Source of the DNA: Clostridiales bacterium
GTDB lineage: Bacteria; Bacillota; Clostridia; Saccharofermentanales; DTU023
Reading direction: 5' to 3'
Assembly: GCA_028724525.1 (NCBI GenBank)
Contig: JAQYCV010000019.1
Span: forward strand, 1 to 64,000
Length of the DNA stretch: 64,000 nucleotides
Below the pieces are notes generated by a model. It saw only the letters and a program-made list of their open reading frames with translations. It was not told the origin of the DNA and made no database searches. Position numbers and translations under genes: made by a program. Shown here one piece after another: positions 33,310 to 38,752 of the stretch. Each line of letters opens with the position of its first letter. The first letter of the stretch is position 1.

Positions 33310-33318
33310 TGCTATAAT
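33310..33318 (+). promoter_or_regulatory. Extended -10 promoter of the 33.3-35.9 kb gene pair
   Basis: TGCTATAAT is a consensus extended -10 element, 52 bases before the start codon of the ZorA-like gene. A -35 is weak (GAGTTG at a 17-base distance). Confidence 0.6.
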
Positions 33319-33369
33319 TTCCCTATTATAAGAGTGTACGTTCAGGAAAACCCAAGGAGGCTTTACACC

Positions 33370-34911
33370 ATGCATATCTCACCTATAGTGCTTCTGGTAA
33401 ATGGAGAACCTATGGTCAACATCATCATTCTCTGCTTAACCTTAGTGATCCCCTTCTTCTCTATCATCTTGAGTTTAATCTACTTAAACCGGATGGCCCG
33501 GATTAAAGAAGACTGTCTGGCTCAAGCAGAAGATTGGGAGGCAGACTTACGTGAAGTCCGCCCCAATTCTATGGACAATCTAGAGGCAGTCAGTAAGGTT
33601 ATTGACCAAGAGGAAGATGAAATCCTCTCTCAGGTCTGGAAAGACGTACTCGAGGATAGTCAGACCTTTTTTAAAGGTCGCTGGTTGCCTCCCCTGGAAA
33701 GCTATCTCAACCCCCAAGCTGTAGAAGGACCACAGCTTATTAATTTATTAAGTTTTCGCCCGCCCATTCTGGTCTTTTCTATATCTATTCTGACGGCAAC
33801 CGCCCTTTGGATTTACCTAAGAGCTATGCCAACTCAATTCATCCCTGCCTTAGCTTTAATCCCTCTTGCAATAGGCCTGGCCTCTTCCCTCTTTTTGGCC
33901 AATTCCGTTCAAGAGCTCCGTATGCTAGTGGACGAAAAATACCAAAGGATCTACCGGGCCCTGTCCAAGGCCCTGCCCATCTACAACAGCCAGCAGGGAG
34001 TTGCCCTCTTGGTAGACGAAATGCTGAGTCATGAATCACAGCTCAATGACTCCATCCAACGCCTAGAAGAGACAACGAGCAAAATGGCTACAGCAGATTT
34101 TGCCCAGGGCATCAGCCTATCTGTCCGGCAAATTATGAGTCAGGAGATTGCCCCTCCCCTCAGGCAAGCCAGCGAAAACTTAGGAGACCTCGCCCGCAAT
34201 CTGGACCAAAGGCAAATGACCGGTATGGAAAAATTGGCCGGCGATTTCTCTGGCCAGTTATCCGAAAACCTGGCCCGTCACTTAGGTCCCTTGCGCAAAG
34301 AACTTATGGGACTCAATCAATTAATGGCCAGGACCCGGGACTTCATACAGGAATCTGTGACTGTACTCAACAGCAATCGTGAGTACAACGCCAAACTCAA
34401 TCAAGAGATTTCCCAGTCTCTCCGCCTCATGACTGCTGCCAAGAATGACCTGGCCAATGAAATGTCAGAAGTCTCCCAAAATGCCGCAATCATGTCAGAA
34501 ACTAGCACAAAGATGTCCCAGTCTTTTGCGGGTAAGCAAGAGGAATTAGCAAACCGCATTAAGGACTTAGACACTGCCATGCGCGATGCCCTCCAAGTCT
34601 TTTCCCATGGTTTAAAGACCTCTTCTGCCTCCCTGGAATTAGCTGGCCAGCTCAAGCAAGATCAAGAGCAACAGTTTGATGAATTTAGCCGTCAGCTCTC
34701 GTCCTTAATTGTTAAGCTAGAAGAAGTCGACCAAGGAATCAAAAGTTCTTCGGCCAGCTTTACCCAAGAATCCGCTAAGTATGTGGAAGAAACTTTACAA
34801 AACTTTGACCAAAGTCTAGCTGAAGTGGTGGAGCGTCTGCTCTTTACAGCCTCTGCCCTCCGGGATGCCGTAGACAACCTGCCCGCTTCTCTCAAGCAAA
34901 TTAAGAATTAG
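33370..34911 (+). CDS. Membrane protein with ZorA/MotA-like layout: three TM helices and a long coiled-coil tail
   Basis: This is a 513-residue protein. TM1 spans about residues 15-39. A cytoplasmic segment (about 40-130) contains VWKDVLEDSQ and SYLNP. Then come TM2 (132-150) and TM3 (157-177), and a tail of about 335 residues predicted as coiled coil (for example SQEIAPPLRQASENLGDLARNL). This order is that of ZorA in the Zorya anti-phage system: a MotA/TolQ/ExbB-type proton channel followed by a long helical tail. The conserved small-residue TM signature of that family (GxLGTFxGL) is not obvious, so similarity is of layout and segment pattern. AAGGAGG precedes the ATG at 33370; an ATG at 33415 with GGAG is an alternative. 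It forms a unit with the next gene, 8 bases away. A plain coiled-coil membrane protein of unknown role is the alternative. Confidence 0.55.
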   Translation: MHISPIVLLVNGEPMVNIIILCLTLVIPFFSIILSLIYLNRMARIKEDCLAQAEDWEADLREVRPNSMDNLEAVSKVIDQEEDEILSQVWKDVLEDSQTFFKGRWLPPLESYLNPQAVEGPQLINLLSFRPPILVFSISILTATALWIYLRAMPTQFIPALALIPLAIGLASSLFLANSVQELRMLVDEKYQRIYRALSKALPIYNSQQGVALLVDEMLSHESQLNDSIQRLEETTSKMATADFAQGISLSVRQIMSQEIAPPLRQASENLGDLARNLDQRQMTGMEKLAGDFSGQLSENLARHLGPLRKELMGLNQLMARTRDFIQESVTVLNSNREYNAKLNQEISQSLRLMTAAKNDLANEMSEVSQNAAIMSETSTKMSQSFAGKQEELANRIKDLDTAMRDALQVFSHGLKTSSASLELAGQLKQDQEQQFDEFSRQLSSLIVKLEEVDQGIKSSSASFTQESAKYVEETLQNFDQSLAEVVERLLFTASALRDAVDNLPASLKQIKN

Positions 34912-34919
34912 CTCATTCT

Positions 34920-35903
34920 ATGTGGCACGATAAGCAAGAGATGCCAAAAGTTCAGCCAGACTCTCCCATGAAGCAGATGGCCCGCCAGCTCTTAGCTTCA
35001 GATAGCCAGGAGAATACCCGACCACAGCCCCTCATTCGCCGGGTTAGCTTGTCTGAGCGTTTTAGCCAGGACCAGGAACCGGGTTCCACACAAAAAACAA
35101 TCCCCAGTTCAGATCTCATCCAAAAGCCCAGGCCTCAACAGAGTTCAGGCCTAGTGCAGAAGCAAGACAAAACACCAAGGCCTCAGCAGAGACTGGCGCG
35201 CAAGCCTGCCCATAGGCTACTAGCGCCAAAGCCCCGGCCAGGACGTTTTGCCAGCCTGCAAGAGGCCTTGGCTTATGCCCGCGACTCCTTCCCCCTGCCC
35301 AGGGAAATACAGATGAAGCAGGAGGTCCCCCGCCAGGCCTGGCTACTCAACCAGATCCAGGCTTGCCATGACGAAGGCGATCTTCGGTGCTTAGCCTATA
35401 GCCTATCTAGCCAGGATCTGGCTAATCTTTTCCCTTGTTTGGCTGAGCTAAAAACAGGGAGTGTCATCGACAAGTTACTCCGCCTGATCGCCCTCCGGGC
35501 TAGTAAATACCTCTACTTCCAAGGTTGGATAAGCTTGCAATACACCTATCCCCGCTCAACTGTACAGAAGGGTCTGACGGTGCTTTGTGAAATTTTGGAA
35601 GACAAAAACGCCCACGCTTATCAACTCGAAAGACTTAACTTTCAGAGTCTGCCCTTAGGCCTAGACCGCTTTGATTGGCAGTCGGTCCATCTCATATCCG
35701 AAATCAGCCTGCCCAATACCAGACACTTCATGTCTTCCATCATCAAGTACTTACGAGATTCTGGCCTATCAGGCGAAGAGTTCTTCCAAAAGTATGGTAT
35801 TTATCGAGATTTGGCCTTAGGCCAGGCTATTATCGGCCAGTGGGAGATGGCGGTCTTTGAGTCTAATCTTCATAACAACCATCCCCTACACAATTTGTTC
35901 TAA
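34920..35903 (+). CDS. Uncharacterised protein with a disordered basic N-terminus, partner of the ZorA-like gene
   Basis: This 327-residue protein is of no family I can name. The first 110 residues are rich in Gln, Pro, Arg and Lys, and contain a repeated PRPQQ block, so they are probably disordered. The rest is helical and well folded in appearance, with YLYFQGWISLQYTYPRSTV and a Leu-rich region. It has no signal peptide or membrane helix. Its position 8 bases after the ZorA-like gene suggests a joint function. The general appearance recalls the helical EH-signature proteins found beside ZorA, but I cannot assign the defining Glu and His, so this is only a suggestion. No good ribosome binding site is visible for the first ATG, so translation may be coupled to the upstream gene. 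ATGs at 34941 and 34968 are alternatives. Confidence 0.55.
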   Translation: MWHDKQEMPKVQPDSPMKQMARQLLASDSQENTRPQPLIRRVSLSERFSQDQEPGSTQKTIPSSDLIQKPRPQQSSGLVQKQDKTPRPQQRLARKPAHRLLAPKPRPGRFASLQEALAYARDSFPLPREIQMKQEVPRQAWLLNQIQACHDEGDLRCLAYSLSSQDLANLFPCLAELKTGSVIDKLLRLIALRASKYLYFQGWISLQYTYPRSTVQKGLTVLCEILEDKNAHAYQLERLNFQSLPLGLDRFDWQSVHLISEISLPNTRHFMSSIIKYLRDSGLSGEEFFQKYGIYRDLALGQAIIGQWEMAVFESNLHNNHPLHNLF

Positions 35904-37333: not shown

Positions 37334-38065
37334 ATGGATTTTAATGTTAATCATCCCCTATTCTTTGCCCTGGCTGGATTAGTCATTATTTTTGTCCTGG
37401 GACAATCGATTTTCTTTTTGATCAAGGCCTATCAAGAAGCCAGGCGCCTGGGCCTAGCTAGCAAGGTCCTGCGCAAAGTCATGGCGGGGTCTGCCATCTT
37501 CTCTGTCGCCCCCGCCGTTGCGATTTTGCTGGGCCTAGTCACCCTGTCCAAGTTCCTAGGCTTGCCCCTCCCCTGGATGCGGCTGTCTGTATTAGGCGCT
37601 CTGACCTATGAACTGCCAGCCGCGACTTCTGCGGCCAAGGCCATGGACATTCCCCTCAACCAAACCGTCACCGATCCCCAGGTCTATGCCACCATTACTT
37701 GGGTCATGACCCTCGGTATCCTGTCCGGGATTCTGGTTATTCTCTTTTTCCAAAAGAAGATGGAGCAGGGCCTGGATAAGGTCAAAAATAAGGACCAAAA
37801 ATGGAGCCAGATTATGATGGATTCGCTCTTTCTAGGCATGATCGCTGCCTTCATGGGTATGGTCTTTTCTGATATCCGGTCCGGGCTTGTAGGTTGGATA
37901 CCCGTATTTGTCATGGCCTTCTCTGCCCTAGTTATGATGGTCATAGGCCTCATGGTCAAAAAGCTCAAATGGACCTGGCTGGAAAACTATGCCATGCCCT
38001 TATCTATGTTATCTGCTATGGCTTTTGCGATCCCCCTCACTTCCTGGATTACGGGAAATCACTAA
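37334..38065 (+). CDS. DUF5058 family membrane protein
   Basis: This 243-residue protein has about six hydrophobic helices. It shows the features I associate with DUF5058: the N-terminal HPLFFALAGLVIIFVLGQS helix, the cytoplasmic KVLRKVMAGSAIFSVAPA stretch, and LGALTYELPAATSAAKAM. The function of the family is not established. It is encoded between an M20 peptidase and a second membrane protein with small spacings, so it is probably one half of a two-component transporter. AGGAGG precedes the ATG. Confidence 0.75.
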   Translation: MDFNVNHPLFFALAGLVIIFVLGQSIFFLIKAYQEARRLGLASKVLRKVMAGSAIFSVAPAVAILLGLVTLSKFLGLPLPWMRLSVLGALTYELPAATSAAKAMDIPLNQTVTDPQVYATITWVMTLGILSGILVILFFQKKMEQGLDKVKNKDQKWSQIMMDSLFLGMIAAFMGMVFSDIRSGLVGWIPVFVMAFSALVMMVIGLMVKKLKWTWLENYAMPLSMLSAMAFAIPLTSWITGNH

Positions 38066-38077
38066 AGGAGTTAAGTC

Positions 38078-38752
38078 ATGACTAAATTACAAGCAACACA
38101 AAATTATCGCGACCGGGTACACGTCTGGGGCAGAGTCTCCCTTGCCCTAGCCTTGATCATGTTTATTTCCTACCCTTTGGTTTTATGTATCCACTTTGAT
38201 GCTTGGCCGGGCTGGTGGCCCGTCTTTAAGGGGCTCCTGGGTGTAGCGCCCATTTACTGGACAGTTGGCGTTATCGAGGCCTTGACCTTTGGCCCTATGC
38301 TGGGTTCAGGCGGGGCCTATCTGGGCTTTGTCACCGGTAATCTGACCGCCATGAAGGTACCTGCGGCCATCCGGGCCCAGCAGGTCAGTAAAACAGAAGC
38401 CAACACACCCGAAGGAGAAGTCATTGCCACCATCGCCATAGCGATCAGTTCCATCGTGACAACGCTCATCCTTCTAATCGGCATGCTCTTACTCACCCAA
38501 TTACAACCTGTTTTGGAGTCTCCCCTACTAGCACCTGCCTTTGACAATATCCTACCGGCTCTTTTCGGAGGACTGGGTGTCGTTTTTATTGCCAAGGCAT
38601 GGAAAATTGCCCTGGCACCCATCGCCATCATGCTTGCGGTCTTCCTGCTCTTCCCCCAGTTGGCTGGGGCTGTAAGCGTCCTGGTGCCGGTGTCTGCCCT
38701 CATCACTTTAGGGTTTTCACGCATCCTCTATAAAAAAGGCTATTTAGATTAG
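38078..38752 (+). CDS. Second membrane protein of the DUF5058 pair
   Basis: This 224-residue protein has about five hydrophobic helices. Notable conserved-looking segments are the Gly-rich GPMLGSGGAYLGFVTGNLTAMKVPAA loop and EGEVIATIAIAISSIVTT. It is encoded 12 bases after the DUF5058 gene, with AAAGGAG before its ATG, and ends at a strong terminator, which closes the three-gene unit. I infer a heteromeric transporter with its upstream neighbour. No binding protein or ATPase is nearby, so it would be a secondary carrier. Confidence 0.7.
   Translation: MTKLQATQNYRDRVHVWGRVSLALALIMFISYPLVLCIHFDAWPGWWPVFKGLLGVAPIYWTVGVIEALTFGPMLGSGGAYLGFVTGNLTAMKVPAAIRAQQVSKTEANTPEGEVIATIAIAISSIVTTLILLIGMLLLTQLQPVLESPLLAPAFDNILPALFGGLGVVFIAKAWKIALAPIAIMLAVFLLFPQLAGAVSVLVPVSALITLGFSRILYKKGYLD

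Follow-up and report, generated by a model that had tools for sequence, protein, structure and literature searches.

In the usual order of stator genes, the stator protein has an OmpA-domain protein as its neighbor, while TolR/ExbD-type partners have no OmpA domain. Type IV pili (T4P) are anchored in diderm bacteria by the secretin and PilP; what keeps the T4P machine in place when the cell has one membrane and lacks these two is, to our knowledge, an open question. The ion path of ZorA and MotA includes a polar Ser/Thr ring, and MotB and ZorB use an Asp of the membrane helix (PMC11890865).

The window (the whole 64,000-nt stretch of DNA analyzed) contains two adjacent co-directional genes, here called A and B, whose products and upstream signals are the following:

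33310–33318, + strand: extended -10 promoter element TGCTATAAT, without a good -35 (from sequence)
33354–33360, + strand: Shine-Dalgarno site of gene A, AAGGAGG (from sequence)
33370–34911, + strand: gene A, 513 aa, putative TolQ/ExbB/ZorA-like membrane protein with a long coiled-coil tail
34920–35903, + strand: gene B, 327 aa, predicted soluble helical partner

Both open reading frames are present as the first-pass annotation described them. The best start for gene A is the ATG at 33370, with AAGGAGG 9 nt upstream; a GTG at 33334, in the same frame, lacks a comparable Shine-Dalgarno site. The unit had also been credited with its own extended -10 promoter: judged by eye, the element at 33310–33318 is perfect, but it is not listed by a -35/-10 scan, because it has no good -35. 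Eight nucleotides separate the stop of A from the start of B, and when the window pair is taken together with those of its relatives, 37 in all, nearly all gaps (35/37) are within about 60 nt, with a 4-nt overlap in 11 of the 37. Elsewhere in the window, downstream of an M20 peptidase gene, two further adjacent and co-directional genes (37334–38749) encode membrane proteins, one of 243 aa and the other of 224 aa; they look like a paired transporter, and an NCBIfam search with them gave no match.

Protein A is predicted to consist of a first membrane helix, a cytoplasmic segment of ~90 residues, a TM2-TM3 hairpin, and a helical tail of ~335 residues, an order that had been read from the sequence in the first pass and is seen in both the alignment and the AlphaFold model:

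33421–33486, + strand: TM1 (residues ~18–39), within a long helix, 14–61 (AlphaFold model and sequence)
33676–33693, + strand: GRWLPP motif (residues 103–108) in the cytoplasmic TM1-TM2 segment; family consensus YxGxWLPDP (alignment)
33763–33819, + strand: TM2 (residues ~132–150); column 139 a conserved Gly, replaced by Ser in the window protein; Ser/Thr not conserved
33844–33900, + strand: TM3 (residues ~159–177); column 165 a conserved Pro, no conserved Ser/Thr
33901–34908, + strand: cytoplasmic helical tail (residues 178–513) (alignment, model)

Conserved blocks in the tail are FAxGIxxSVRxIM, QxxGMxxLAxxF, and a C-terminal FDxGLAEVVERL..IRDAVDALP. The model, made with 47 sequences, has pLDDT mostly between 83 and 95 in the membrane part and low confidence in the tail. 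When it was searched against the PDB with Foldseek, ZorA took ranks 1–4 and 6, and TolQ or ExbB the others through rank 32, the first 32 matches all being from one superfamily; none is below E 1e-3, and the top match (8qyd_A; probability 1.00, target TM-score 0.55) is marginal at 1.9e-3. Since ZorA, TolQ, and ExbB make up nearly all of the best matches, the MotA/TolQ/ExbB/ZorA-like build, proposed earlier as ZorA-like, is probably real, even if the match to the modeled fold is statistically marginal. At the sequence level, Pfam, NCBIfam, and PADLOC profiles gave no significant match for A or B, those with low E-values falling on the coiled tail only. PF01618 (MotA_ExbB) has no match to the window protein A up to E 10, and is not among the 25 families listed, out of 71, for 30 A members; the case for homology to the MotA/TolQ/ExbB superfamily comes from structure. 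Sequence matches of A to MotA are weak.

Several candidates raised by the tail were discarded. An NCBIfam MCE match (E 7e-5, far below the cut-off, tail only) was taken as a coiled-coil signal, as were PADLOC ZorA matches to the tail, because the same profile also rings in control genomes (Bacillus subtilis, Thermus, Lactococcus), most likely on coiled coils. Protein A is a caution that ZorA profiles call coiled-coil tails as Zorya. On the contig of the window (G000:C19:91526-93979, equivalent to L222:8526-10979), a repeat-rich coiled protein of 818 aa adjoining an MMPL-like transporter weakly matches the A profile; it was rejected as an A homologue, and is a similar caution for coiled-coil profiles in general.

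In the TM2 and TM3 columns of the 47 homologues, where the alignment is weak, no Ser or Thr is conserved; a Gly, a Pro, and a Leu are among the positions with the strongest conservation. Because the polar ion-path residues are not conserved, A seems unlikely, on sequence grounds, to be a proton channel. As a contrast to A, two clostridial ZorA-like proteins (L104:1504-2970 and L109:802-2265) have GLLGTF(L/I)GL motifs and are followed by a ZorB-like gene.

Protein B had been described as soluble and helical, with a disordered Pro/Gln/Arg-rich arm, and on this the model and the sequence agree:

34920–35234, + strand: N-terminal arm, Pro/Gln/Arg-rich, of low model confidence and varying in length among relatives
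35028–35063, + strand: short conserved arm motif PLIRRVSLSERF; in the family (I/V)R(K/P)xxL, often repeated (alignment)
35235–35870, + strand: all-helical core domain with blocks HPLPREIQM, LYxxGWLTLQFxYPRS, and ISLPNSRHF (alignment, model)

Residues ~112–320 are modeled as all-helical, with pLDDT mostly above 90, while residues 32–71 and 78–84 have low confidence. A PDB search with the model returned nothing under E 0.1. The first-pass suggestion of a profile comparison with EH_signature had a negative outcome: 30 B members have no Pfam match (PF15611 included), and HHalign of B against EH_signature (PF15611) gives a probability of 0.1%, which together rule out B as an EH_signature/ZorC protein.

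In the family of the window (f1), 35 of the 38 genomes carry A and 36 carry B, so this is not a chance pair of open reading frames. Two other families of the order, f2 and f4, also have both; in f3, no match to either was seen. The relatives are Mageeibacillus- and Fastidiosipila-like Clostridia, all metagenome-assembled. In the surveyed loci A and B lie side by side and point the same way, and they stay joined while their surroundings vary. Many f1 genomes, including that of the window, have the pair beside pyrG, IMP dehydrogenase, greA, and lysS; others have recG-, rsmD-, coaD-, and D-ala-D-ala-ligase-like neighbors (names by sequence inspection), and the f4 pair is next to fatty-acid synthesis genes (also named by inspection). 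None of the conserved neighbors points to a definite function. The core copies of f1, f2, and f4 form one clade each in the tree, and the pair is inherited vertically in the family. ZorB, ZorD, and ZorE had been noted as missing beside the pair, and profile searches of the neighbors were indeed negative for these, and for ZorC as well. The f1 genomes have no match to the OmpA-domain profile PF00691, and the ten window neighbors of the pair no match in a PADLOC search. No relatives of A or B were found in viral contigs, nor of B in plasmids, and no mobile or defense context was found around the pair in the surveyed loci.

The class as a whole was searched with a wider A profile. Outside the order, five genomes have an A with an adjacent B: G393 and G448 (f44), G214 (f31), G431 (f76), and G199 (f16). 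All five pairs are in a T4P context, with PilB, PilT, PilC, PilM, PilN, PilD, or pilins around them; weaker matches of this search (E 8e-6 to 9e-4), one of them on the contig of the window, may be coiled coils. Family f4 has A paralogues in addition to its core copies, in loci that include PilB/PilT/PilC/PilM/PilN/PilO-type genes upstream. Four of them (L201–L204; G185:C18, G182:C118, G181:C45, and G183:C265) are long-tailed (673–984 aa) and downstream of pil genes, behind pilM/pilN/PilO-type genes and each followed by a gene in the B position; two more (L136 and L148) adjoin pilin-like genes.

Some of these loci have a third component. In the two f44 genomes, a gene for a protein with one TM helix and an OmpA domain above the Pfam cut-off lies between A and B, and the A-OmpA-B set is upstream of pilB-pilT-pilC-pilM (L184:2744-6263 and L185:7400-11091). 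In one f4 genome (G172, L206:163-2738), a homologue of this OmpA protein comes directly after A, downstream of a PilO-like gene; the contig ends before any B position. An OmpA-domain protein adjoins A in these three loci only, and not in the window. In none of the three does the TM helix have the Asp that is found there in MotB and in clostridial ZorB-like proteins. Term searches found no mention of an A-OmpA-B gene set in papers about how MotAB evolved or about Gram-positive T4P, and none of OmpA or MotA in the Gram-positive T4P papers; the stator-like set of clostridial T4P is apparently new to the literature.

The core and T4P-linked proteins are homologous, with HHalign probabilities of 99.9% for A, over nearly its whole length, and 98.9% for B, and by these profile comparisons the window pair is akin to the T4P-linked A-B pairs of other Clostridia. 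In the tree, which is unrooted and drawn with a midpoint root, the T4P-linked clade is apart from the core clade (both 100/99), with L136 and L148 as basal branches on the core side. The earlier idea of a “reduced” system is supported here, in that an OmpA-domain partner is still present beside relatives in T4P loci.

A pilus in the organism of the window itself is another matter. No PilT match reaches the curated cut-off in this genome, in any f2 genome, or in most f1 genomes, and searches of contig C19, the window included, turned up no pil gene. The genome does have a match to a T2SSE-family ATPase (E 3.6e-44), placed at family level. Co-occurrence of the core pair with PilT was rejected: f3 has PilT without the pair, and f2 the pair without PilT. 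The core pair is therefore not a PilT companion, and a present-day role in a pilus is unlikely in this lineage.

The explanation that we favor, and consider reasonably probable, is that the pair is a core version, without the OmpA part, of a TolQ/ExbB/ZorA-like module from clostridial T4P, acting as a passive envelope scaffold. Protein A would form an oligomeric membrane ring, by analogy pentameric, from which a long coiled-coil stalk extends into the cytoplasm. B would be a helical adaptor in the cytoplasm, co-produced with A, that most likely binds this stalk and uses its disordered arm to recruit further proteins. A scaffold of this kind is suggested, instead of an ion-driven motor, because there are no conserved ion-path residues and no MotB/ZorB partner. 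In T4P loci the OmpA-domain partner would fix the A ring to peptidoglycan and give support to the pilus machine. The pair in this lineage would have been retained after separation from PilT, itself lost in most genomes, to serve a core function in the envelope, for instance the placement of wall or division machinery. With an unrooted tree, the order of events is argued from parsimony, by which the T4P-linked form would be the older and the core form derived; the OmpA gene could instead have been gained in f44 and f4, and not lost in the window lineage.

Other explanations share part of this evidence. The build of A would suit a motor that is still driven by ions, with a partner gene located elsewhere whose product has diverged beyond the reach of the OmpA profile; a TolR/ExbD-type partner, in particular, would be missed by PF00691, having no such domain. 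TM2 and TM3 without a conserved polar residue, and OmpA partners that lack the membrane Asp even in T4P loci, make this quite unlikely. It is unlikely, too, that the pair continues to work with a pilus-type machine here, driven for example by the T2SSE-family ATPase: its homologues are members of T4P clusters and the genome has the ATPase match (E 3.6e-44), but PilT above the cut-off is missing from the genome and most of the family, pilus genes from the contig, and the pair from f3, which has PilT.

The likeness of A to TolQ and ZorA might also be limited to three TM helices and a coil, A being an unrelated coiled-coil envelope protein, as the Foldseek E-value just above 1e-3, the missing MotA_ExbB profile match, and the weak MotA matches would allow. 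Against this stand best PDB matches drawn almost wholly from a single superfamily, not from mixed helical proteins, and T4P-linked homologues adjoining OmpA-domain proteins, and we regard this too as improbable. A reduced Zorya anti-phage system, with A as a ZorA sensing envelope damage and B as an effector, is a very remote prospect. ZorA is the best match to the fold and long tail of A, and its PADLOC profile weakly matches that tail; against this, the profile behaves in the same way in the three control genomes, the ion-path residues and ZorB are missing, B is not an EH_signature protein, and viral relatives of either protein and plasmid relatives of B are lacking. The pair is, moreover, nearly universal in f1, vertically inherited, and set among housekeeping genes, with no defense or mobile association and no PADLOC match in ten neighbors, so that the Zorya-defense reading fails. 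Universal vertical conservation next to pyrG without a defense association had been named at the outset as evidence against such a system; this is essentially the pattern found, except that pyrG is only one of several neighborhoods.

A broader and more tentative proposal can be made: that clostridial T4P hold a peptidoglycan-anchored stator that is not ion-driven (A as ring, the OmpA protein as anchor, B as adaptor), in place of anchoring by secretin and PilP, and that in the Saccharofermentanales A-B outlived the pilus as a near-universal envelope scaffold. The TolQ/ZorA-like protein and OmpA-domain partner of clostridial T4P clusters are in any case a concrete candidate for what holds these pili. 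The window pair suggests that the module can do without its OmpA part, persisting as a core pair where PilT is mostly lost, and that the scaffold function of this superfamily can be separated from ion-driven work.

Among known systems, ZorA (8qyd, 8vvn) is the top structural match, and like A has three TM helices, a cytoplasmic TM1-TM2 segment, and a long helical cytoplasmic tail; A differs in that its ion path lacks conserved Ser/Thr, that no ZorB was found in the genomes of its family, and that ZorC, ZorD, and ZorE are absent, and the pair differs from Zorya in its housekeeping context and vertical inheritance. TolQ and ExbB (8odt, 5sv0), the next best matches, share the predicted topology of the membrane domain, while A has a long tail, no TolR/ExbD-type neighbor that could be seen, and no recognizable sequence similarity to them. 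The OmpA partner of T4P-linked A (f44 and one f4 genome) resembles MotB and ZorB in its single TM helix, OmpA domain, and position beside A, but not in its TM helix, which has no Asp; no such partner was found in the family of the window. The window pair adjoins pyrG, in a genome without PilT above the cut-off, and in this is unlike the clostridial T4P clusters (pilB-pilT-pilC-pilM-pilN-pilO), to which homologues of A and of B belong in f44, f31, f76, f16, and the f4 paralogue loci.
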